Of a stretch of 64,000 bases of DNA, positions 35,402-46,425 are shown piece after piece. The notes under the pieces were generated by a model, which saw only the letters and a program-made list of their open reading frames with translations, was not told the origin of the DNA and searched no databases. The position numbers and the translations under genes were made by a program. Location of the stretch: assembly GCF_902859645.1 (NCBI RefSeq), contig NZ_CADIJR010000032.1, positions 1 to 64,000 of the forward strand. The letters are read 5' to 3'. Position 1 is the first letter of the stretch. The number at the start of each line of letters is the position of its first letter. Origin of the DNA: Achromobacter insuavis. Lineage in GTDB: Bacteria; Pseudomonadota; Gammaproteobacteria; Burkholderiales; Burkholderiaceae_B.

Positions 35402-36232
35402 ATGCCCATCGATCACTACGAGAATTTTCCCGTCGCCTCGCTGCTGCTGCCGCGCAGGCTGCGCGGCGCCGTGACCGATCTGTACCGGTTCGCCCGGGCG
35501 GCGGACGACATCGCCGACGAAGGCAGCGCCAGCGACGACGAGCGGCTGGCCCAACTGGCGGCGTTCCGCGCCGAACTGCACCGCATCGGCGCCGAACCGG
35601 GCGCCGTGCCCGCGCCCGGCGCGCCCGAACTGGCCGGCATCTTCGTGCCGCTGGCCGCCACCATCGCCCGCCACCAGTTGCCCATCACGCCGTTCTACGA
35701 CCTGTTGTCGGCCTTCGAGCAGGACATCGGCGTCAAGCGCTACGACGACTACGCCACGCTGGCCGACTACTGCACCCGCTCGGCCAACCCGGTCGGGCGG
35801 CTGATGCTGCACCTGTTCGAGGCCGCCGATCCACAGAACGTGGAGCAGTCGGACGCCATCTGCACCGGGCTGCAGCTGGTGAACTTCTGGCAGGATGTGC
35901 GGGTCGATTGGCACAAGCACCGCGTCTACCTGCCGCAGGAAGACCTGCGCCGCTTCGACATCTCGGAAGAGGACCTGGCGGCCTGCCGCCTGACGCCGGC
36001 CTGGCGCGCGCTGATGGCGTTCCAGGTCGAACGCACCCGCGCGCTGCTACACTTCGGCGCTCCGCTGGCGCGCCGCCTGCCGGGCCGTATCGGCCTGGAG
36101 CTGCGCCTGGTGGTGCAAGGCGGGCTGCGCGTGCTGGAGCGGATCGAGGCGAGCGGCTACGATGTATTCATGAACCGACCCGAATTGGGCGCCAAGGACT
36201 GGGCCATCATGCTGTGGCGCTCCATCAAGTAA
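35402..36232 (+). CDS. hpnC: Hydroxysqualene synthase HpnC
   Basis: A trans-isoprenyl diphosphate synthase-like (squalene/phytoene synthase fold) enzyme, 276 residues, that converts presqualene diphosphate to hydroxysqualene. The first aspartate-rich motif is YRFARAADDIADEG and the second region is LQLVNFWQDVRVDWHKHRVYLPQED. The N-terminus HYENFPVASLLLPRRLR is typical of HpnC. It is the first gene of the hpnCDE squalene operon. A TAAAAT at 35343-35348 may be the -10 box. Confidence 0.94.
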   Translation: MPIDHYENFPVASLLLPRRLRGAVTDLYRFARAADDIADEGSASDDERLAQLAAFRAELHRIGAEPGAVPAPGAPELAGIFVPLAATIARHQLPITPFYDLLSAFEQDIGVKRYDDYATLADYCTRSANPVGRLMLHLFEAADPQNVEQSDAICTGLQLVNFWQDVRVDWHKHRVYLPQEDLRRFDISEEDLAACRLTPAWRALMAFQVERTRALLHFGAPLARRLPGRIGLELRLVVQGGLRVLERIEASGYDVFMNRPELGAKDWAIMLWRSIK

Positions 36233-36251
36233 GTAAACGGCCCTGCCAACT

Positions 36252-37115
36252 ATGACCCCTGACGAGTACTGCCAGGAGAAAGCCGCCAAGAGCGGTTCCA
36301 GCTTCTACTATTCCTTCCTGTTCCTGCCGCCCGAGCGGCGTCGCGCCATCACGGCGCTGTACGCCTATTGCCGCGAGGTCGACGACGTGGTCGACGAATG
36401 CACCGATCCGTCGCTGGCGCGCATCAAGCTGGCGTGGTGGCGCACGCAGGTCGACCAGATGTTCGACGGCAAGCCCGACCATCCCGTGACCCGCGCGCTG
36501 CTGCCGCACCTGCAGAGCTGTTCGATCACGCGCGAACGCCTGCTGGCGGTGATCGACGGCATGGAAATGGACCTCGACCAGACCCGCTACCTGGACTGGC
36601 CCGGCCTGCGCAAATATTGCTGGCACGCCGCCGGCGTGGTGGGCGAGCTGTCGGCCGGCGTGTTCGGCTATACCGATCCGGCCACGCTGGTCTACGCCGA
36701 AAAGCTCGGCCTGGCGTTCCAGATGACCAACATCATCCGCGACGTGGGCGACGACGCCCGCCGCGGCCGCATCTACATCCCGGTCAACGACATGCAGCAG
36801 TTCGAGGTCAAGGCCTCGGACATCCTGAATGGCGAATATTCCGAGCGCTTCTCGGCCCTGATGAAGTTCCAGGCCGAACGCGCCCGCGAGCTGTACCGCG
36901 AGGCGATGCGCAGCCTGCCCGAGGTCGACCGGCGCGCGCAGCGCCCCGGCCTGATGATGGCGGCGATCTATCACGCGCTGCTCGACGAGATCGAGCGCGA
37001 CAACTGGCAGGTGCTGCACCAGCGCATCTCGCTGACCCCGCTGCGCAAGCTGTGGCTGGCGTGGAAGACCTGGGTGGGCGGCGGACGCGGACTGGTCCGC
37101 CGGTTGGCACGGTGA
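36252..37115 (+). CDS. hpnD: Presqualene diphosphate synthase HpnD
   Basis: Condenses two farnesyl diphosphates to presqualene diphosphate. 287 residues. It shows SGSSFYYSFLFLPPERRRAI, ALYAYCREVDDVVDEC (first DxxxD), and AFQMTNIIRDVGDDARRGRIYIP (second DxxxD). It follows hpnC after 19 bp and overlaps hpnE by 4 bp (GTGA), so translation is coupled. Confidence 0.95.
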   Translation: MTPDEYCQEKAAKSGSSFYYSFLFLPPERRRAITALYAYCREVDDVVDECTDPSLARIKLAWWRTQVDQMFDGKPDHPVTRALLPHLQSCSITRERLLAVIDGMEMDLDQTRYLDWPGLRKYCWHAAGVVGELSAGVFGYTDPATLVYAEKLGLAFQMTNIIRDVGDDARRGRIYIPVNDMQQFEVKASDILNGEYSERFSALMKFQAERARELYREAMRSLPEVDRRAQRPGLMMAAIYHALLDEIERDNWQVLHQRISLTPLRKLWLAWKTWVGGGRGLVRRLAR

Positions 37116-38443
37116 AGGCGGCGGTCATCGGCGCCGGCTGGGCGGGCCTGGCGGCCAGCGTCGCCCTGCGCGAGGCCGGCGCCAAGGTCACCGTCTTCGA
37201 AGCCGGCCACACGCCCGGCGGCCGCGCCCGGCGCGTGTTCCACGATGGCTTCGAATCGCCGCTGGACAACGGCCAGCACCTGCTGTCCGGCGCCTACAAA
37301 CACACCCTGGCGCTGATGCGCCGAGTGGGCCGCAACCCGGATGCCCTGCTGATGCGCCGGTCGCTGCGGCTGGCCAGCCTGGACGGCCGTTTCCGGCTGT
37401 CGGCGCCGCGCCTGCCCGCGCCCCTGCACATGGCGGTGGCGATCCTGGGCGCGCGCGGCCTGTCGTGGTCCGACCGCTTCGCCACGCTGCGCCTGATGCG
37501 CGGCCTGCGCGCCATGTCCTGGACGCCGCCGCGCGACTGGACCGTGCAGCAGCTGCTGCACTACCACGGCCAGTCCGACGCCCTGATCCGCCAGGTCTGG
37601 GAACCGCTCTGCCTGGCCGCCCTGAACACGCCCGTGGCCAGCGCCAGCGCCGGCCTGTTCGCCCGCGTGCTGCGCGACAGCCTGGCCGGCAGCCGCGAGG
37701 ACAGCGACCTGCTGCTGCCCTGCACCGACCTGTCGGCGCTGTGGCCGGACGCCGCCGCGCGCCAGGTCACCATGCGCTATGGCAGCACGGTGCGCCAGTT
37801 GCGGCCGTCCGAAGACGGCATCGACATCAACCAGGAACGCTTCGACGCCGCCGTGCTGGCGGTGCCGCCGACCTTCGCCGCGCGCCTGCTGGAAGCGCCG
37901 CTGCGGGCGGCCGGCGCGACCGGCCTGCTGGACGCGCTGCGCGCCTTCGACTACCTGCCGATCGCGACGCTCAACCTGCGCCTGGCCGGCCCCTGGCGGC
38001 TGCCCGAGCCCATGATGATGCTGCGCGAGGAACCGGCCCGCGGCCACGTCGGCCAATGGCTGTTCGACCGCGCGCAGCTGGCCGGCGATGCCCAGGCCGG
38101 CGAACTGGCGGTGGTCGCCAGCGTCGCCACCAGCCTGGCCGACCGCAACCGCCAGCAGGCCATCGAGGCCCTGATCGACCAGGTGGCCGAACAGGCCGCC
38201 GGCCATCCGCAGCGGCTGCCGCCGATGCCGGAAGTGACCTCGGCGGAATTGTTCATCGAGAAGCGAGCCACCTTCGCGGCGGTGCCGGGCCTGACCCGGC
38301 CGTTGAACAGCACCCCCTGGCCCACGCTGGCCCTGGCGGGAGACTGGACCGACACCGGCTACCCCGGGGTGCTGGAAGGCGCCGTGCGCAGCGGCCTGGA
38401 AGCGGCGCGGGTGCTGAATCCGCGCGTCAGCGCAGCACGCTGA
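37112..38443 (+). CDS. hpnE: Hydroxysqualene dehydroxylase HpnE
   Basis: A FAD-dependent amine-oxidase-like enzyme of 443 residues that reduces hydroxysqualene to squalene. The dinucleotide-binding motif is KAAVIGAGWAGLAASVALREAGAKVTVFEA, followed by GGRARRVFHDGFESPLDNGQH. The C-terminal LALAGDWTDTGYPGVLEGAVRSG completes the FAD site. It starts with a GTG overlapping hpnD. Its 3' end overlaps that of the convergent crcB by 17 bp. No squalene-hopene cyclase is encoded in the window. Confidence 0.95.
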   Translation: MKAAVIGAGWAGLAASVALREAGAKVTVFEAGHTPGGRARRVFHDGFESPLDNGQHLLSGAYKHTLALMRRVGRNPDALLMRRSLRLASLDGRFRLSAPRLPAPLHMAVAILGARGLSWSDRFATLRLMRGLRAMSWTPPRDWTVQQLLHYHGQSDALIRQVWEPLCLAALNTPVASASAGLFARVLRDSLAGSREDSDLLLPCTDLSALWPDAAARQVTMRYGSTVRQLRPSEDGIDINQERFDAAVLAVPPTFAARLLEAPLRAAGATGLLDALRAFDYLPIATLNLRLAGPWRLPEPMMMLREEPARGHVGQWLFDRAQLAGDAQAGELAVVASVATSLADRNRQQAIEALIDQVAEQAAGHPQRLPPMPEVTSAELFIEKRATFAAVPGLTRPLNSTPWPTLALAGDWTDTGYPGVLEGAVRSGLEAARVLNPRVSAAR

Positions 38444-38819
38444 CGGTGGCCAGCCCCAGGCCGGTCAGCAACAACGATCCGATCAGGCTGATGCCGGCGT
38501 AGCCCAGCGCGCCGGCGTACGCGCCGCGCTCCAGCATGGCCACGGTCTCGGCCGAGAAGGTCGAGAACGTGGTCAAGCCGCCCATGAAGCCGGTGACGGC
38601 CGCCAGCCGCACCCAGGCCGGCCATTCGGGATGGCCGGCCACCAGCGCCAGCACCAGGCCGACCAGGTAGCCGCCCGCCAGATTGGCCGCCAGCGTGCCC
38701 CAGGGCCAGGCCTCGGTGTTGAGCCACAGGCTGACGAGCCAGCGGGCCCACGCGCCGCACATGGCGCCCAGGCCCACGGCCAGGAAATTCAGGGGGATCA
38801 GGGTCTGGTAGGCGGACAT
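38427..38819 (-). CDS. crcB: Fluoride ion channel CrcB/Fluc
   Basis: A small dual-topology fluoride exporter of 130 residues with four membrane helices. The conserved residues occur in GLGAMCGAWARWLVSLWLN, WGTLAANLAGGYLVGL (channel Asn) and TGFMGGLTTFSTFSAETV (the sodium-site Thr/Ser and Phe box). The ATG at 38819 begins MSAYQTLIPLN; the longer frame to 38891 lies in the upstream hdeD-like gene. No fluoride riboswitch is seen upstream, since only 4 bp separates it from that gene, so it is probably co-transcribed with it. Confidence 0.93.
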   Translation of the reverse strand: MSAYQTLIPLNFLAVGLGAMCGAWARWLVSLWLNTEAWPWGTLAANLAGGYLVGLVLALVAGHPEWPAWVRLAAVTGFMGGLTTFSTFSAETVAMLERGAYAGALGYAGISLIGSLLLTGLGLATVSVLR

Positions 38820-38823
38820 GGGC

Positions 38824-39378
38824 TCAGGGCGCGCGGTGCTGCTTGAGGCGCAAGGAAAAGACCAGCAGCAGTATGCCAAAGAACACGGCATAGATACCGA
38901 TGACCCAGACCAGCGCCAGCGCGCCCGCTCCCGGCTGCATGATCAGCATGGCGCCGAACAGGATCGACACCAGCCCCGACAGCCCCAGGAACCATTCGTT
39001 GCGGATGTCCTTGCGGAAGCGTATCGCGGCGGCGATCTGGAACACGCCGGCCACCAGCGCCCAGATGGCGATGATGTAGAGCAGGATCAGCGCCGTCAGG
39101 CCCGGCCACAGGAACGTCACGATGCCGGCCGCCACCCCCAGCAGGCCGACGATGATCAAGGCCCACAACGGTTTGCCCTGGTCGCGGATGCGGATACCGG
39201 CGATCAGCGCCAGCACGCCATCGGCCAGCGCGAACGCGCCCCACACCAGCACCAGCGCCGACAGCGTGATCGCCGGCATGAACATGGCCATCAGGCCGAA
39301 CAGGATGGCGACGACGCCGCGCAATGCCACCCAACCCCAGTGACGACCGATCTGATCCACGACTTGCGAGTCAAGCAT
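38824..39378 (-). CDS. HdeD-family acid-resistance membrane protein
   Basis: An inner-membrane protein of 184 residues with six hydrophobic segments arranged as three similar pairs (LRGVVAILFGLMAMFMPAITL, ALIIVGLLGVAAGIVTFLWPGL, LGLSGLVSILFGAMLIMQPG), the pattern of HdeD/DUF308. E. coli HdeD is linked to acid resistance at high density; the function here is inferred. It is immediately upstream of crcB, and both may protect the cytoplasm against weak acids or HF. The promoter region 39379-39533 is shared with the divergent PepSY operon. Confidence 0.85.
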   Translation of the reverse strand: MLDSQVVDQIGRHWGWVALRGVVAILFGLMAMFMPAITLSALVLVWGAFALADGVLALIAGIRIRDQGKPLWALIIVGLLGVAAGIVTFLWPGLTALILLYIIAIWALVAGVFQIAAAIRFRKDIRNEWFLGLSGLVSILFGAMLIMQPGAGALALVWVIGIYAVFFGILLLVFSLRLKQHRAP

Positions 39379-39479: not shown

Positions 39480-39494
39480 TAAGATTCATTCTCA
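39480..39494. promoter_or_regulatory. Candidate Fur box upstream of the PepSY operon
   Basis: TAAGATTCATTCTCA reads TGAGAATGAATCTTA on the other strand and matches the 7-1-7 Fur consensus (TGATAATGATTATCA) at 11 of 15 positions. It lies about 40 bp before the PepSY gene start, a usual place for repression. It suggests that the five-gene operon is induced when iron is scarce. Confidence 0.6.
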
Positions 39495-39533
39495 TTGAGT
39501 GTTAGACTCCGGCCCTTGTATTTTCCCCCCACC

Positions 39534-40160
39534 ATGGACAGTCACGCCTCCCCCCGCCGCCGGGCCTACTGGCTCAAGACGCTGCACCAATGGCACTGGA
39601 TCAGCTCGGCGCTGTGCCTGCTGGGCATGCTGCTGTTCGCGGTGACCGGGCTGACCCTGAACAACGCCTCCCACATCGAAGCCAGGGCCCGCGTCACCAA
39701 CCGCGAAGCGCGCCTGCCCGAGCCCGTGCTGGCCCAGCTGGCGGCGCCCGCCGGCCAGAAGAAAGGCCCCCTGCCCGCCGCGGTCGTCCAATGGCTCGAC
39801 CGCGAACTGGACACCGCCACCGGCGGCAAGCCGGCCGAATGGTCGGCCGACGAGGTCTACCTGTCGCTGCCGCGCGCCGGCGGCGACGCCTGGCTGTCCA
39901 TCGACCGCGCCAGCGGCGATATCGAATACGAACGCACCGACCGCGGCTGGATCGCCTATCTCAATGACCTGCACAAGGGCCGCAATACCGGCCAGGCCTG
40001 GAGCTGGTTCCTCGATATCTTCGCCATCGCCTGTCTGGTCTTTGCCCTGACCGGGCTGGTGCTGCTCAAGATGCACGCGGGCAACCGCGGCGCCACCTGG
40101 CCCATGGTCGGCCTCGGCGTCGTCATCCCGCTGGTGCTGGCGCTGCTTTTCATTCACTGA
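39534..40160 (+). CDS. PepSY-associated transmembrane helix-domain protein
   Basis: A membrane protein of 208 residues in the PepSY_TM family. The N-terminal helix (WHWISSALCLLGMLLFAVTGLTL, about 19-42) has His in LHQWHWIS; a periplasmic region (45-150) with PepSY character (WLSIDRASGDIEYERTDRG) follows. Helices at about 160-180 (WFLDIFAIACLVFALTGLVLL) and 190-207 complete the fold; a His lies in LNDLHKG. The conserved histidines could bind heme. Family members pass electrons through the membrane in flavin-dependent reductases. It is the first gene of a five-gene operon behind a candidate Fur box. Confidence 0.88.
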   Translation: MDSHASPRRRAYWLKTLHQWHWISSALCLLGMLLFAVTGLTLNNASHIEARARVTNREARLPEPVLAQLAAPAGQKKGPLPAAVVQWLDRELDTATGGKPAEWSADEVYLSLPRAGGDAWLSIDRASGDIEYERTDRGWIAYLNDLHKGRNTGQAWSWFLDIFAIACLVFALTGLVLLKMHAGNRGATWPMVGLGVVIPLVLALLFIH

Positions 40161-40187
40161 TCCATTCGATCCGCCCTGGAGATATCC

Positions 40188-40703
40188 ATGCGCAAGCTGT
40201 TGTTGTCGGCCATGCTGGCCGGCCTGATCGCCCGAACGGCCCATGCCGCCGACATCGGCCTGTCCATCGAGGTGCCGCGCCTGGACGTGGCCGAATACCA
40301 CCGCCCCTACGTCGCGATCTGGATCGAGAATCCCGACCAGAGCGTGGCCGCCGACCTGGCGGTCTGGTACGACGTGGCCAAGAAGAACAACGAAGGCACC
40401 GAGTGGCTCAAGGACATGCGCCAGTGGTGGCGCCGCAGCGGCCGCAACCAGACCTTCCCGGTGGACGGCGTCAGCGGCGCCACCAAGCCGGTCGGCAAGC
40501 ACGCCCTGCAATTCGACGCCGCCGCCAAGCCGCTGGCCAGCCTGAAGCCGGGCCAGTACGCGGTGGTGGTGGAAGCGGCGCGCGAAGTCGGCGGCCGCGA
40601 GCTGCTGCGCATTCCCTTCCAGTGGCCGCCGCAGAAGGCCGAGCAATTGACCGCGCGCGGCGAACACGAACTGGGCGCCATCGCCCTGGACCTGAAACCC
40701 TGA
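40188..40703 (+). CDS. DUF2271 protein with a flavinylation motif (predicted FMN-bearing)
   Basis: An exported protein of 171 residues (signal peptide about 1-21, cleaved AHA-ADIGLS). The DUF2271 domain has AIWIENPDQ and LAVWYDVAKKNNEG. The stretch VDGVSGATKPVG (residues 92-103) fits the ApbE acceptor consensus D-x-x-S/T-G-A-T, so Thr99 is the likely site of covalent FMN attachment. ApbE is encoded two genes downstream. DUF2271 proteins have been reported among predicted flavinylated extracytosolic redox proteins. The Trp-rich helix (WLKDMRQWWRR) could pack against the flavin. It sits 27 bp after the PepSY gene. Confidence 0.85.
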   Translation: MRKLLLSAMLAGLIARTAHAADIGLSIEVPRLDVAEYHRPYVAIWIENPDQSVAADLAVWYDVAKKNNEGTEWLKDMRQWWRRSGRNQTFPVDGVSGATKPVGKHALQFDAAAKPLASLKPGQYAVVVEAAREVGGRELLRIPFQWPPQKAEQLTARGEHELGAIALDLKP

Positions 40704-40720
40704 CCCTGAGGAAAGCCACC

Positions 40721-41521
40721 ATGAAATCCGCCGCCAAACTGGCCGCCGCCCTGGCCCTGAGCCTGCCTTTCGCCGCGCAGGCCCATGACGTCTGGATGGT
40801 GCCGTCCTCGACGGTGCTGTCCGGCACCGACAGCTGGATCACCGTGGACGCCGCCGTCGGCAACGACAAGTTCTACTTCAACCACGCGCCGCTGCGCCTG
40901 GACGGCCTGGCCGTGGTGGCACCGGACGGCTCCGCCGCCGAGGCCGAGAACCTGAACCGCGGCAAGCTGCGCAGCACCTTCGACCTGCAGCTCAAGCAGA
41001 GCGGCACCTACCGCATCGCCATGGTCAACGACGGCGTGTTCGCGCGCTGGAAGGAAGACGGCAAGCCCAAGCGCTACTTCGGCAAGCCCGAGGGCCTGGC
41101 GCAGGCCGTGCCGGCCAACGCCGCCGACCTGGAAGTCACGCAGAGCCTGGGCCGCGTCGAAACCTTCGTCACCGCCGGCAAGCCCAGCGCCGTCAAGCCC
41201 GTGGGCCGCGGCCTGGAGCTGGCGCCGGTGACGCACCCGAACGACCTGTACAGCGGCGAATCCGCCAGCTTCCAGATGCTGCTGGACGGCAAGCCCGCCG
41301 CCGACCTCGACGTGACCCTCGTGCCGGGCGGCGCCCGCTACCGCGACAAGGTCGGCGAGATCGCCGTCAAGACCGACAAGGACGGCAAGTTCTCGGTCAA
41401 GTGGCCGCAGCCGGGCCTGTACTGGGTGGAAGCCGGCACCGAAGACGCCAAGGTGACGGTGGCGCAGGCCAAGAAGCGCCGCCTGTCGTACGCCGGCACC
41501 GTCGAAGTGCTGCAACCCTGA
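40721..41521 (+). CDS. DUF4198 periplasmic protein
   Basis: An exported protein of 266 residues of the DUF4198 family (sometimes labelled cobalt/nickel-transport periplasmic component). The signal peptide ends near AQA-HDVWMVPS; the new N-terminal His is typical of this family and could bind a metal through the free amino group and the imidazole. Later blocks are FYFNHAPLRLDGL, GTYRIAMVNDGVFARWKEDGK and ELAPVTHPNDLYSGE, followed by an Ig-like domain. The metal, if any, is not determined. It is 17 bp after the DUF2271 gene. Confidence 0.85.
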   Translation: MKSAAKLAAALALSLPFAAQAHDVWMVPSSTVLSGTDSWITVDAAVGNDKFYFNHAPLRLDGLAVVAPDGSAAEAENLNRGKLRSTFDLQLKQSGTYRIAMVNDGVFARWKEDGKPKRYFGKPEGLAQAVPANAADLEVTQSLGRVETFVTAGKPSAVKPVGRGLELAPVTHPNDLYSGESASFQMLLDGKPAADLDVTLVPGGARYRDKVGEIAVKTDKDGKFSVKWPQPGLYWVEAGTEDAKVTVAQAKKRRLSYAGTVEVLQP

Positions 41522-41535
41522 CGGTTGCCGCCGGC

Positions 41536-42552
41536 ATGTCGGACACGCCTTCCTATGCGCCGCGCGGCGCGGTCATGGCCGCGCCGCGCGTGAGCTTCGG
41601 TGGCCTGCCGGCGCGCGCCGCCGCGCTGGCGGGCGCCACCATGGGCACCACCTGGTCGGCGCGGCTGGCGCTGCCGGCCGGCCGCGACGAAGCGGCCGCG
41701 CGCCAGGCGATCCAGGCCGCGCTGGACGAGGTGGTGGCGCAGATGAGCACCTGGGAAGCCGAATCCGACATCAGCCGCTACAACCGCGCCGGCCCCGGCT
41801 GGCGCGAACTGCCGGCCGCCTTCTTCCACGTGCTGCGCCACGCGCTGGCGTTGGCCGAAGACAGCGATGGCGCCTATGACCCGACGGTCGGCCCGCTGGT
41901 CAACGCCTGGGGCTTCGGCCCGTGGCAGCGCGGCTTCGAGCCGCCCTCGCCGGCCGCGATCGACGCCGCCCGCGCGCGTTGCGGCTGGCGCCGCGTGGCC
42001 CTGGACCCCGCGCGCCAGGCCGCGCACCAGCCGGGCGGCATCTATCTCGATCTGTCTTCCATCGCCAAGGGCTATGGCGTGGACCGCGCCGCGCAGGCGC
42101 TGGACGCGCTCGGCCTGACCGATTACCTGGTCGAGGTGGGCGGCGAGCTGCGCGCGCGCGGCCAGCGCCCCGACGGCCAGCCCTGGCGCGTCGCGGTGGA
42201 AGTGCCCGACGGCAGCGACGCCCACGCGCTGGCCCTGCCGCTGCGCGACCTGGCCATCGCCACCTCGGGCGACTACCGCCGCTATGCCGGCGAAGGCGAT
42301 GCCCGCTATGCCCACACCATCGACCCGCGCAGCGGCCAGCCGGTGCGCAACGGCGTCGCCTCGGCCACCGTGCTGCACGCCTACTGCATGCAGGCCGATG
42401 CGCTGGCCACCGCGCTGACGGTGCTCGGCGAACGCGATGGGCTGGCCTACGCCGAACGCCACCGCCTGGCGGCGCTGTTCATCATGCGCGACGCCGACGG
42501 CTACCGCGTCGATGCCAGCGCGGCCTTCCAGGCCCTGGCCGTCGCGCGCTGA
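41536..42552 (+). CDS. apbE: FAD:protein FMN transferase (ApbE family)
   Basis: Transfers FMN from FAD to a Thr in an acceptor protein. 338 residues. Motifs: LAGATMGTTWSARLAL, STWEAESDISRYNR, YDPTVGPLVNAWGFG, LDLSSIAKGYGVDRAAQAL, EVGGELRARG and YAHTIDPRSGQPVRNGVASATV. It starts MSDTPSYAPRG without a clear signal peptide or lipobox, so it may be membrane-peripheral, or the true start may differ. The likely acceptor is the DUF2271 protein encoded upstream (Thr99). Confidence 0.93.
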   Translation: MSDTPSYAPRGAVMAAPRVSFGGLPARAAALAGATMGTTWSARLALPAGRDEAAARQAIQAALDEVVAQMSTWEAESDISRYNRAGPGWRELPAAFFHVLRHALALAEDSDGAYDPTVGPLVNAWGFGPWQRGFEPPSPAAIDAARARCGWRRVALDPARQAAHQPGGIYLDLSSIAKGYGVDRAAQALDALGLTDYLVEVGGELRARGQRPDGQPWRVAVEVPDGSDAHALALPLRDLAIATSGDYRRYAGEGDARYAHTIDPRSGQPVRNGVASATVLHAYCMQADALATALTVLGERDGLAYAERHRLAALFIMRDADGYRVDASAAFQALAVAR

Positions 42553-42555
42553 ATC

Positions 42556-43926
42556 ATGACGTCCCGCTGGATCGCCGCCGCGTGCGTGGTGCTGGCCTGG
42601 CTGCTGCTGTGCGGCTGGGCGTGGCATCGTGCGCGGCGGCGCCAGGCCCTGGCGGCGCGGGCCCTGCGCGAGCTGGACGCGCCCCAGGGAGACGACGCCA
42701 TCCTGGTGGCCTACGCCAGCCAGACCGGCTATGCCGAAGCGCTGGCGGCGCAGACCGCGCAGTCGCTCCAGGCCGGCGGCCTGGCCGTGCGCGTCGCGCC
42801 GCTGGCGCAACTGGATGGCGCGCGCCTGGCCGCCAGCCGGCGCATCCTGTTCATCGCCAGCACCTACGGCGAAGGCGATCCCCCCGACGCGGCCGCGGCC
42901 TTCGCCAGCCAGACGATGCAGGCCGCGACGCCGTCGCTGGGCGGCCTGCGATACGCGGTGCTGGCGCTGGGAGACAGCGAATACGCCCATTTCTGCGGCT
43001 TCGGCCGCCGCCTCGACGAATGGCTGCGGCGGCACGGCGCCACGCCGCTGTTCGACCGGGTCGAGGTCGACGACGGCAATCCGGCGGACCTGCGCCACTG
43101 GCAGCATCACCTGGGCCTGCTGGCCGGCCGCGGCGACCTGCCCGATTGGGAAGCGCCGGCCTATGCGTCCTGGCGGCTCGCCGGCCGCGAACTGCTCAAC
43201 CCCGGCAGCCAGGGCGGCCCGTGCTACCTGCTGACGCTGGCGCCGCCCGCCGCCGGCGCGCCGGTCTGGCTGGCCGGCGATATCGCCGAAATCGGCCCGC
43301 GCCTGACGCGCGACGGCGCGCCGCAGCCGCACCGCGAATATTCGATCGCCTCGCTGCCGGCCGACGGCGCGCTGCAACTGCTGGTGCGCCAGATGCGCGG
43401 CGCCGATGGCGCGCTGGGCGTGGGCAGCGGCTGGCTGACCGAGATCGCGCAAGTGGGCGATCCGATCGACTTGCGGATCCGCGGCAACCGCAATTTCCAC
43501 GCGCCGGCCGACAGCCGGCCTCTGATCCTGATCGGCAACGGCACCGGGCTCGCCGGCCTGCGCGCCCTGATCAAGGCGCGCCGCGCCGCCGGGCACTCGC
43601 GCAACTGGCTGTTGTTCGGCGAACGCAACGCCGCGCATGACCGCTTCTGCGGCGCCGAACTCGACGCCTGGCGCGAGGACGGCACGCTGGCCCGCCTGGA
43701 CCGGGTGTATTCGCGCGACCAGCCCGAGCGCCGCTATGTGCAGCACCGCCTGCTGGAGCAGGCCGGCGCTGTGCGCGCCTGGATCGCCGCAGGCGCGGCG
43801 ATCTACGTCTGCGGCAGCCTGCAAGGCATGGCCGGCGGCGTCGATGCCGCGCTGCGCGACATCCTCGGCGACGAGCCGCTGCAGGCGCTGCGGCACGACG
43901 GCCGCTACCGCCGCGACGTGTACTGA
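42556..43926 (+). CDS. Membrane-anchored diflavin (sulfite-reductase-flavoprotein-like) reductase
   Basis: A 456-residue protein with one N-terminal membrane helix (about 6-23, IAAACVVLAWLLLCGWAWH), a flavodoxin domain (LVAYASQTGYAEALA, FIASTYGEGDPPDAA, LGDSEYAHFCGFGRRLDEWL) and a ferredoxin-NADP-reductase-like domain (PHREYSIASLP for FAD, LIGNGTGLAGLRALI and IYVCGSLQGMAGGV for NADPH). It ends RRDVY, as CysJ-type reductases do. NAD(P)H electrons would pass via FAD and FMN to the membrane. It is the last gene of the PepSY-DUF2271-DUF4198-ApbE operon. Confidence 0.92.
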   Translation: MTSRWIAAACVVLAWLLLCGWAWHRARRRQALAARALRELDAPQGDDAILVAYASQTGYAEALAAQTAQSLQAGGLAVRVAPLAQLDGARLAASRRILFIASTYGEGDPPDAAAAFASQTMQAATPSLGGLRYAVLALGDSEYAHFCGFGRRLDEWLRRHGATPLFDRVEVDDGNPADLRHWQHHLGLLAGRGDLPDWEAPAYASWRLAGRELLNPGSQGGPCYLLTLAPPAAGAPVWLAGDIAEIGPRLTRDGAPQPHREYSIASLPADGALQLLVRQMRGADGALGVGSGWLTEIAQVGDPIDLRIRGNRNFHAPADSRPLILIGNGTGLAGLRALIKARRAAGHSRNWLLFGERNAAHDRFCGAELDAWREDGTLARLDRVYSRDQPERRYVQHRLLEQAGAVRAWIAAGAAIYVCGSLQGMAGGVDAALRDILGDEPLQALRHDGRYRRDVY

Positions 43927-43964: not shown

Positions 43965-44924
43965 CTATTGCAGCTTGATCTGCGCCTGGTCGATCACGGT
44001 CTTCCAGCGATCGCGCTCGGCGCGGATCTGCGCGCCGAATTCGGCCGGCGTGTTGCCCAGCGGGAACGCGCCGGTTTCCTCCATCTTGGCCGCGGTGGCG
44101 GGGTCGCGCACCGCCTTGGCGAAGGCCTGCGCCAGCTTGTCGCGCACGTCGGCCGGCATGCCGGCCGGCCCCACCACGCCATACCAGGCGGTGACGTCGT
44201 AGTCCTTGTAGCCCTGCTCGGCGAAGGTCGGCACGTCCGGCAGGCGCGGATTGCGCGCCGCGCCGGTAATCGCCAGCGGACGCAGGTGCTTGCTCTTGAT
44301 GTACGGCAGCGACGACGGGAAGTTGTCGAAGATCACCGGCACCACCCCGCCCACCGTGTCGGTCAGCGCCGGCGCCGACCCGCGGTAGGAGATGCTGTTC
44401 ATCTTGCCGCCCGTGATCTGCAGGAACCAGATCATGCCCAGGTCGTTGATGCCGCCGGCGCCGGCATTGGCGTAGCCGTCCTTGCCCGGATTGGCGCGCA
44501 CGTGCGAGACGAATTCCGCCAGGGTCTTGGCCGGGTATTGAGGATTGACGCTGAGGATGTTGGGGCTGGTCACCAGGTTGCTGACCGGCGTGAAGTCCTT
44601 GACCGGGTCGTAGGCCAGGTTCGGGAACAGGTGCGGCGCGGTGCCGTGGGTGCTGACGGTCGCCAGGCCCACGGTGTAGCCATCCGGCTTGGCGCGCGCG
44701 GTGGCGGCCATGCCGATGGTGCCGGACGCCCCGGTGCGGTTCTCCACCACGATCTGCTGCCCCAGGATCTCGCCGGCCTTGGCCGCGGCCAGCCGACCGA
44801 CGATGTCGGTGGGACCGCCGGCCGGGAACGGCACGATCAAGGTGATGGGACGGTCGGGGAATTCGGCGTGGGCCGCCGGCAACAGGGCGGCCAGCGCCAG
44901 GGCGACGCAAGTCTTGCGGATCAT
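43965..44924 (-). CDS. Bug-family solute-binding receptor (linked to D-aminoacylase)
   Basis: A fourth solute receptor, 319 residues, with a short signal peptide (MIRKTCVALALAALLPAAHA). Core blocks: [59 protein letters not shown], and VTAWYGVVGPAGMPA. Because it is next to the D-acylamino acid deacylase gene on the same strand, N-acyl-amino acids or related carboxylates are possible ligands. The ATG at 44924 is preferred to a longer frame up to 44996, which lacks a signal sequence at its start. Confidence 0.92.
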   Translation of the reverse strand: MIRKTCVALALAALLPAAHAEFPDRPITLIVPFPAGGPTDIVGRLAAAKAGEILGQQIVVENRTGASGTIGMAATARAKPDGYTVGLATVSTHGTAPHLFPNLAYDPVKDFTPVSNLVTSPNILSVNPQYPAKTLAEFVSHVRANPGKDGYANAGAGGINDLGMIWFLQITGGKMNSISYRGSAPALTDTVGGVVPVIFDNFPSSLPYIKSKHLRPLAITGAARNPRLPDVPTFAEQGYKDYDVTAWYGVVGPAGMPADVRDKLAQAFAKAVRDPATAAKMEETGAFPLGNTPAEFGAQIRAERDRWKTVIDQAQIKLQ

Positions 44925-44958
44925 GGGGGTTGTCTCCTGTGGGGATCGGTTCTGCTTG

Positions 44959-46425
44959 TTATGGGGAAATCGGGGGCGCGCCCGCGATGCTGGCATCGCG
45001 GCGCAATATCCTGCCGGGGCGCTGCGTCTCGGGCGCCGCCGGAAACACCGGGCAGCCGTTGACCAGCACGTGCTCGATGCCGGCCGAGGCCAGCGTCGGC
45101 GCGTCCCAGGTGGCGCGGTCGCGCACCGTGTCGGCGTCGAACACCACCACGTCGGCCCAGGCGCCGACGGCCAGCCGGCCCCGGTCCGCCAGGCCGAACA
45201 CGCGCGCCGGCAGCGCCGTCATCTTGGCCACCGCCGCCTCCAGCGTCAGCAGCTCGGCCTCGCGCACATAGCGGCCCAGCACGCGCGTGAAGCTGCCCCA
45301 CAGGCGCGGATGCGGATGCGCGTCGTTGGGCAGGCCGTCGGAGCCCACCATGCAGCACTCGTGCTGGAAGATGCGGCGCACCTCGTTTTCATCCATGGCG
45401 AAGTAGATCGCGCCGGCGGGACACAGGCGGCGCGCGGCCGTGACCGGGTCGCAGTCCCAGCGCGCGGCGATCTCGGCCAGCGACTGGCCGCCGCATTCCG
45501 GATGCGGGGTCGACCAGGTGATGCGGATGTCGTCGATCTGGTCGGCGCGCTCCGGAATCAGGATGGTGGAGCTGCCGGGATAGGGATAGATGTCCAGCGC
45601 CACGTCCACGCCGTCGGCGCGGGCGCGGTCGATGTTGGCCAGCGTGGCCGCGCTCTTGCCCCAGTTGGCGGGCATCATGCATTTGTGGTGCGACAGCACC
45701 GTGGCGCAGCCGGTGCGGCGGCCGACCGACAGCACCTCGTCGACCGCGGCCTCGACCGCGTCGCCTTCGTTGCGGATGTGGCTGGTATGCAGCGCGCCGC
45801 GCGCCGCGGCCACCCGCGCCAGGCCGTCCAGCTCGGCGGCCTCGGCGACGCCGCCGGGCTGGTAGGCCAGGCCCGTGCTGAAGCCCGCCGCGCCGGCCGC
45901 CAGCGCCTCGGCCAGCATGCGCTCCATGGCCTGCTGTTCCGCTTCGGTGGGCTGGGCCGCCGGATCGCGCATGGCGGCCAGGCGCAGATTGGCGTGGCCC
46001 ACCAGCGCGGCCACGTTGATCATCGGCCGCTGCGCCTGCAGCGCGCCGAAGTACGCGGCCATGTCCGTGAACAGCGGCGAATCGCCCAGCAGCGCCAGCG
46101 CCGCGGCGGTATTGCCGGGCAAGGGCGCCGGCGCGCCGCTGATGCCGCAGTTGCCGACCACCACCGAGGTGATGCCCTGGCTGGTCTTCCATTCCAGGCC
46201 CGGCTTTTCCACGAACATCAGGTCGTCGTGGCCGTGGGTGTCGATGAAGCCGGGGGCGACGATCTTGCCGCCGGCGTCGATGCGCCGGCCGGCCGGCATG
46301 GCCGACAGATCGCCGATGGCGGCGATGCGCTCGCCGCGGATGCCGACGTCGGCGCGCCGGCGCGGTCCGCCCAGGCCGTCGATCAGCCAGCCGCCCTCAA
46401 TCACCAGATCCAGATTTTCCTGCAT
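44959..46425 (-). CDS. N-acyl-D-amino-acid deacylase (D-aminoacylase family)
   Basis: An amidohydrolase-superfamily enzyme of 488 residues. It should hydrolyse N-acyl-D-amino acids to a D-amino acid and an acid, using zinc. The metal site begins APGFIDTHGHDDLMF, followed by TSVVVGNCGISGAP (Cys ligand), GLAYQPGG, HTSHIRNEGDAVEAAVDE, LSHHKCMMPANWG and CCMVGSDGLPNDAHPHPRLWGSFTRVLGRYV. The C-terminal adaptor strand is GRLAVGAWADVVVFDADTVRD. ATG 46425 has a ggaag upstream. It is divergent from a LysR regulator with a 147 bp gap. Confidence 0.92.
   Translation of the reverse strand: MQENLDLVIEGGWLIDGLGGPRRRADVGIRGERIAAIGDLSAMPAGRRIDAGGKIVAPGFIDTHGHDDLMFVEKPGLEWKTSQGITSVVVGNCGISGAPAPLPGNTAAALALLGDSPLFTDMAAYFGALQAQRPMINVAALVGHANLRLAAMRDPAAQPTEAEQQAMERMLAEALAAGAAGFSTGLAYQPGGVAEAAELDGLARVAAARGALHTSHIRNEGDAVEAAVDEVLSVGRRTGCATVLSHHKCMMPANWGKSAATLANIDRARADGVDVALDIYPYPGSSTILIPERADQIDDIRITWSTPHPECGGQSLAEIAARWDCDPVTAARRLCPAGAIYFAMDENEVRRIFQHECCMVGSDGLPNDAHPHPRLWGSFTRVLGRYVREAELLTLEAAVAKMTALPARVFGLADRGRLAVGAWADVVVFDADTVRDRATWDAPTLASAGIEHVLVNGCPVFPAAPETQRPGRILRRDASIAGAPPISP

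Follow-up and report, generated by a model that had tools for sequence, protein, structure and literature searches.

A PepSY-like flavinylation operon of Achromobacter insuavis, probably Fur-repressed and serving reductive iron uptake

Described relatives and the Achromobacter operon

PepSY-like systems, in which a PepSY-like membrane protein is encoded together with the flavin mononucleotide (FMN) transferase ApbE and with DUF2271 and DUF4198 proteins, were described in 2021 and proposed to reduce iron (Meheust 2021; PMC8238504). The accessible part of that study reports a DUF2271 protein that is flavinylated by ApbE and loses the modification on Thr-to-Ala exchange (PMC8238504). The operon CC3059-3063 of Caulobacter is Fur-regulated, with Fur sites over its -35 and -10 elements; its listed changes range from about 12 to 51 in two table columns, which we take to stand for iron limitation and a fur mutant (PMC3751524). 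Insertions in these genes lower fitness in ethylenediaminetetraacetic acid (EDTA) (PMC12004947), and DUF4198/DUF2271 gene pairs of Alteromonas rise in low iron (PMC7190382). We describe an operon of this kind from Achromobacter insuavis, located in a stretch of 64,000 nucleotides (positions 1 to 64,000 of contig NZ_CADIJR010000032.1), hereafter the window. Its best reading is an iron-regulated, flavinylated transmembrane electron-transfer system driven by reduced nicotinamide adenine dinucleotide (phosphate), NAD(P)H, and it is probably Fur-repressed and devoted to reductive iron uptake. Iron-linked flavinylation is already in print and the operon is an ordinary further member of such systems. 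It adds a clean question, raised by a dedicated transferase that lacks a recognisable export signal although its flavoprotein is exported.

The original prediction from the window proposed five tightly spaced genes for PepSY, DUF2271, DUF4198, ApbE and diflavin reductase proteins, and Pfam matches bear it out. The genes occupy 39534-43926 of the + strand with intergenic gaps of 27, 17, 14 and 3 bases. The proposal that they form a flavinylated transmembrane electron-transfer system is likewise supported, matching what the accessible sources describe (Meheust 2021; Caulobacter CC3059-3063). The gene set was followed in 80 loci collected by DUF2271 similarity, the best 80 of 474. The 23 nearest in the DUF2271 protein scan are from Achromobacter (97 to 86 percent identical) and the next from Bordetella. 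All five genes are found in the same order and on the same strand in 60 of the 80 loci, and none of the 80 has a different gene order. The operon has its own ApbE in 74 loci; ApbE alone is missing in two, ApbE and the diflavin reductase are both missing in four, all on short contigs, and PepSY is missing in one, at a contig edge. Matches to DUF2271 occur in 38 of 300 genomes from the order and in 73 of 397 from the phylum.

Encoded proteins, promoter and possible electron path

The DUF2271 protein carries the sequence DGVSGAT at residues 93-99, which makes Thr99 a candidate FMN acceptor. This is the ApbE acceptor motif announced in the original prediction, and its Thr is kept in 81/81 sequences, 61 of which have the strict motif. 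It conforms to the [S/T]GA[S/T] substrate motif with an acceptor Thr, and D-x-x-[ST]-G-A-[ST] is found in no other of the five operon proteins. The start of the protein is of the Sec type according to hydrophobic-window rules (not SignalP), in keeping with the definition of PepSY-like systems, which asks for a signal peptide on one or more of the ApbE, FMN-binding, DUF3570 and DUF2271 genes; a Tat-like (twin-arginine translocation) motif occurs in 0/81.

The DUF4198 signal peptide ends in AQA directly before a His (cleavage site judged by eye), so that the mature protein would begin with the His foreseen in the original prediction. His22 and His55 (mature His1 and His34) are present in 81/81 sequences and His172 (mature His151) in 79/81, the exceptions being one row cut short and one Pro. 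The structural model (predicted local distance difference test, pLDDT, 91.8) gives Foldseek matches to Zcp (9MHM and others; template modelling score, TM, about 0.7) and to the Ni-bound IsDUF4198 (9GCB; TM 0.62). The N-terminal His after cleavage and the modelled fold are shared with the DUF4198 metal-binding proteins. It is more likely to be the metal-handling part of the system because its predicted fold resembles those of two solved metal-binding proteins, and the Fur context favours Fe2+ as its metal. The metal ligands of 9GCB or Zcp are not transferred to it since its conserved His set differs from both. In the sequence file the Zcp chains of 9MHI-9MHO are named phosphoribosylglycinamide formyltransferase, under entries titled as metal-bound Zcp, probably a misnamed chain.

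The PepSY-like protein, adjoining ApbE and DUF2271, scores above cut-off with both the PF16357 and PF03929 models. Its structural model (pLDDT 86.9, predicted TM score pTM 0.69) has helices at 7-43, 154-182 and 188-207. Among 79 loci and the window, H21, H147 and H208 are present in 80/80, H181 in 77/80 and H18 in 67/80. From the model helices and the basic N-terminus, H18/H21 and H181 are predicted to lie on the cytosolic side and H147 and H208 on the periplasmic side. With four His almost always conserved, two per predicted membrane face, the protein probably carries haems and serves as a di-haem electron conduit.

The diflavin reductase is CysJ-like but short (456 residues). Its flavodoxin and NAD-binding halves both match sulfite reductase flavoprotein, its best solved relative by sequence (6.4e-45), and RDVY stands at its C-terminus in 64/64 sequences (63 loci and the window). 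Basic residues come after its single N-terminal hydrophobic helix, and for this reason the catalytic part should be cytosolic.

From these proteins we infer an electron chain of NAD(P)H, flavin adenine dinucleotide (FAD)/FMN, two haems, FMN-DUF2271 and Fe(III). In the cytosol NAD(P)H would reduce the membrane-anchored diflavin reductase, which would hand its electrons to PepSY. There they would first enter a haem on the cytosolic side, coordinated by H181 with H21 and perhaps H18, and then move to another on the periplasmic side, coordinated by H147 and H208. The FMN on DUF2271 Thr99 would receive them next and reduce ferric iron, free or chelated. The Fe2+ so formed, or some other divalent metal, is probably bound by DUF4198 via its N-terminal His and would then enter the cell through an importer encoded elsewhere. 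ApbE would supply the FMN, most likely to the DUF2271 precursor before Sec export. The chain of the original prediction, from NAD(P)H through the diflavin reductase and PepSY to FMN-DUF2271, is thus well supported but leaves out the probable PepSY haems.

A Fur box had been proposed at 39480-39494, and a Fur-like box is there, extending to 39496. No sigma-70 consensus match was found in the upstream region. In 34/34 Achromobacter/Bordetella upstream regions, window counted, ATTCTCATT precedes a TGnTAGA -10-like word, and a loose set of Fur-like words is present in 12/46 further loci. Genome-wide, the box pattern, allowing two mismatches at most, yields 7 rows at 6 distinct places, against 0 for a control pattern. 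Two of the 5 other places lie ~30 bases upstream of a sigma factor/FecR pair and ~50 bases upstream of a Peripla_BP_2/FecCD pair. The remaining 3 are without obvious iron-uptake genes alongside: one lies between genes for a superoxide dismutase and for a chemotaxis receptor, another is close to a LysR gene, and the third is near a gene that fits no clear family.

Several observations weigh against an iron-regulated, NAD(P)H-driven chain through PepSY. The box does not stand out in a scan with a plain 19-base Fur consensus: the best 19-mer in the 200 upstream bases of the window is another site (12/19, reached by 12/100 shuffles), and the shuffle fraction is <=0.05 in 35/79 upstream regions. 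The diflavin reductase is the only undetected gene in 13/80 loci. The PepSY model has no PDB fold match in Foldseek at E <=0.001 and no PDB sequence match to the protein was found, for which reason the fold of FoxB (7ABW) is not claimed for it, in spite of its partial PF03929 match and its His at both predicted faces. The solved DUF4198 prefers Ni2+ in vitro (PMC12537917).

Table 1. Operon, Fur-like box and neighbouring genes in the window
Feature	Position	Strand	Remarks
Three squalene/hopanoid synthesis-like genes (HpnC, HpnD, HpnE)	35402-38443	+	by eye
CrcB-like fluoride channel	38427-38891	-	by eye
HdeD-like DUF308 membrane protein	38824-39378	-	divergent from operon
Fur-like box TAAGATTCATTCTCATT	39480-39496	+	between poor -35 and TGTTAGACT -10-like word
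PepSY-like membrane protein (PepSY_TM_like_2)	39534-40160	+	PF16357 3.6e-88; also PF03929 6.5e-11
DUF2271, exported, candidate FMN acceptor Thr99	40188-40703	+	Pfam 1.2e-51
DUF4198, exported, mature N-terminal His	40721-41521	+	Pfam 8.3e-62
ApbE, FAD:protein FMN transferase, without recognisable signal peptide	41536-42552	+	PF02424 1.2e-88
CysJ-like diflavin reductase	42556-43926	+	flavodoxin 3.6e-29, NAD_binding_1 3.2e-8; Pfam and NCBIfam
Bug/TctC-type periplasmic binding protein	43965-44996	-	by eye; convergent with operon

ApbE and the place of FMN attachment

The operon ApbE matches its family model and solved ApbEs. Its catalytic Ser244, His260 and Asp288, present in 75/75 ApbEs (74 loci and the window), correspond by order to the reviewed triad Ser241-His257-Asp285 (PMC12052999). 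It starts MSDTPSYAPRGAVMAAPRVSFGG, and a heuristic rule (not SignalP) found no hydrophobic core in its frame from the previous stop to the catalytic core; neither an N-terminal signal peptide nor a lipobox, by which exported ApbEs are defined, is found. A frameshift fusion of DUF4198 and ApbE was considered and rejected, as the spacing between the DUF4198 stop and the ApbE core takes values in all three frames. The motif R-[VIL]-[LAVF]-[IVL]-P (also with H first) precedes the core in 26/75 ApbEs, against about 1 percent of shuffles, and may be a docking peptide; Achromobacter ApbEs share a PSYAPRGA-like start instead.

A first hydropathy cut-off passed 19/75 ApbEs, mostly on Ala-rich stretches before the catalytic core, and was dropped. 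The replacement rule scores 12-residue windows that lie after a basic residue and contain no charge, by their number of large hydrophobic residues; its threshold of 5 of 12 was picked after the data were seen. Tat signals escape it (NosX scores 4), as do, judged by eye, several lipoprotein signals of the controls. Signals at >=5 of 12 are found in 6/75 ApbEs, 71/81 DUF2271 and 63/81 DUF4198 proteins, and at >=4 of 12 in 12/75, 75/81 and 79/81, respectively. The six ApbEs with a signal at 5 of 12 are from four Lysobacter and two Luteibacter loci, the signal being missing in four other Lysobacter loci (L050, L063, L064, L069).

A phylum sample of 60 loci (58 of the 71 places above cut-off and two loci from the order scan), which may overlap in species with the 80 loci, extends this pattern. 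Stand-alone ApbEs occur in 32 of the 60 loci and one of them has a signal; the DUF2271 beside these 32 has one in 23 at 5 of 12 and in 30 at 4. When both collections are pooled, 7/107 stand-alone ApbEs beside DUF2271 have a signal by this rule, compared to 39/55 other ApbEs. These 55 controls, not seen beside operon genes, pass in 39 cases at 5 and in 40 at 4; they were drawn from the 58 best-scoring ApbE loci with L001 and L002, after dropping L192 at a contig edge, and their count is rough, including the signal-less L217 at ~2.7 kb from a DUF2271 match and a few poorly found cores. Four ApbEs beside DUF2271 met among the controls have no signal (0/4); they include the window and an already sampled genome and were not added to the 107. 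A Fisher value for these counts takes no account of relatedness and is not used as a probability. An exported flavoprotein with a transferase lacking a recognisable signal is found in at least ten families of the phylum sample.

The simplest reading, predicted from the lack of a recognisable export signal in the operon ApbE, is that FMN most likely joins DUF2271 while it is still a cytosolic precursor, ahead of its export by Sec. Its extension to most stand-alone ApbE/DUF2271 pairs of Pseudomonadota, with cytosolic attachment to the precursor and subsequent passage through the Sec channel, has in our judgement an even chance of holding. According to the part of a review available to us, ApbE recognises a seven-residue peptide and acts on end tags, less well in inserted loops, and truncated ApbE forms are active in the cytosol of E. 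coli (PMC12052999). A precursor chain could therefore be modified. SecYEG can let small bulky attachments through.

Two published observations speak against cytosolic attachment: a cytosolic ApbE failed to stand in for the periplasmic one in Salmonella (PMC12052999), and the ApbE of the 2021 DUF2271 test is described as signal peptide-truncated (PMC8238504), so that ApbE may be exported in one or more such pairs. The same iron-reduction system might be flavinylated in the periplasm, with the operon ApbE leaving the cytosol by an unrecognised route or with NosX modifying DUF2271, an alternative that we hold possible but less probable. Most ApbEs act in the periplasm, as far as the accessible review text tells (PMC12052999). 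The genome has two ApbE matches, and the second is NosX-like (L002 1450-2535, - strand of contig C76), so named from neighbours read by eye and from its Tat-type start. In 22/60 loci of the phylum sample (L121-L148, L175) no ApbE was found within about 10 kb of DUF2271, which a distant ApbE may modify. ApbE-DUF2271 fusions in 6/60 loci (L157, L165, L166, L176, L179, L180) all have a signal by eye (by the rule four at 5, one at 4, one missed), indicating that both domains can work outside. However, periplasmic attachment agrees poorly with an operon that keeps its own ApbE in 74/80 loci, four of the six exceptions being on short contigs and also without the diflavin reductase, and with an ApbE frame that has no hydrophobic core before the catalytic core and whose distances from the preceding stop leave no frameshift fusion.

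A further alternative, that the operon ApbE serves another, cytosolic substrate and DUF2271 is incidental, appears very improbable. It has a precedent in the cytosolic ApbE of Klebsiella, reported to modify a soluble fumarate reductase (PMC12052999). Yet the sole FMN_bind match in the genome is a NosR-like protein with DIISGAT (L120 1-2061, - strand of contig C76), in a substrate search that covered FMN_bind and DUF2271, and among the operon proteins the acceptor motif is confined to DUF2271. The exported DUF2271 is thus the only candidate substrate, among the families searched, of an apparently cytosolic ApbE.

Were FMN attachment to precede export, no periplasmic FAD would be needed, in contrast to other ApbE systems, whose flavinylation is described as periplasmic. 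The accepted site of ApbE action would then be wrong for a large group, and Sec would pass an FMN-bearing chain. The lack of a recognisable ApbE export signal beside a Sec-type DUF2271 is a point remarked nowhere in the literature found, including the accessible text of Meheust 2021, and the open-licence literature yielded no example of a cytosolic ApbE acting on an exported protein.

Iron, other acceptors and described systems

The genome has no FeoB_C match and two FTR1 matches. It has eleven PepSY_TM matches including that of the operon, eight of them full length, and the operon is therefore one of several possible periplasmic reductases. Reduction of copper, another metal or a ferric siderophore by the PepSY/DUF2271 chain, rather than of free ferric iron, is an unlikely alternative that has parallels in the accessible literature: a link to copper is described for CrpH, a PepSY_TM protein of Bordetella, ferrisiderophores are acted on by FoxB and HiuB, Ni2+ is bound in a solved DUF4198, and the titles of Zcp structures name copper, zinc or cobalt. 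CrpH is, however, a different and longer PepSY_TM type, and iron is favoured by the Fur-like box upstream of the operon and, in the Caulobacter counterpart, by Fur regulation and an EDTA phenotype.

FoxB, HiuB and CrpH have conserved His at both membrane faces in a haem pattern that is proposed or solved, and the two-His-per-face pattern of FoxB and CrpH (PMC13038864) is shared by the operon PepSY according to its model placement. They differ from it in having at least four transmembrane helices and large periplasmic domains, the operon PepSY having three predicted helices. IsDUF4198 (9GCB) and Zcp (9MHI-9MHO) have the fold of the operon DUF4198 by Foldseek, a bound metal and an N-terminal or near-N-terminal His, at 16-20 percent identity. 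Their ligands are His1 and His18 in 9GCB, binding Ni2+ (PMC12537917), and His29, His31 and His142 in Zcp (from a triple-mutant title), compared to the conserved His1, His34 and His151 of the operon protein, the last of which is set against an Asn of Zcp in the sequence alignment. The words iron, PepSY, DUF2271 and ApbE have 0 matches in the main text of PMC12537917.

The ApbE of Klebsiella pneumoniae also has no signal peptide, but its reported substrate is a soluble fumarate reductase that is not exported. In the Amantichitinum ursilacus pair, whose two proteins were produced in E. coli lacking their signal peptides, DUF2271 is reported to be flavinylated at the motif Thr by its cognate ApbE. 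The PepSY-like system of Meheust 2021, as described in the text available, shares with the operon a PF16357/PF03929 protein encoded with ApbE, DUF2271 and DUF4198. Loci of Caulobacteraceae metagenome-assembled genomes (e.g. L052, L055, L057) have an ApbE without signal and no diflavin gene was detected in them. The gene order of the operon recurs in CC3059-CC3063 (CCNA_03155-03159) of Caulobacter crescentus, which belongs to a different class of bacteria and whose operon is described as encoding, in the same order, a membrane protein, DUF2271, DUF4198, ApbE and a sulfite-reductase-type flavoprotein.

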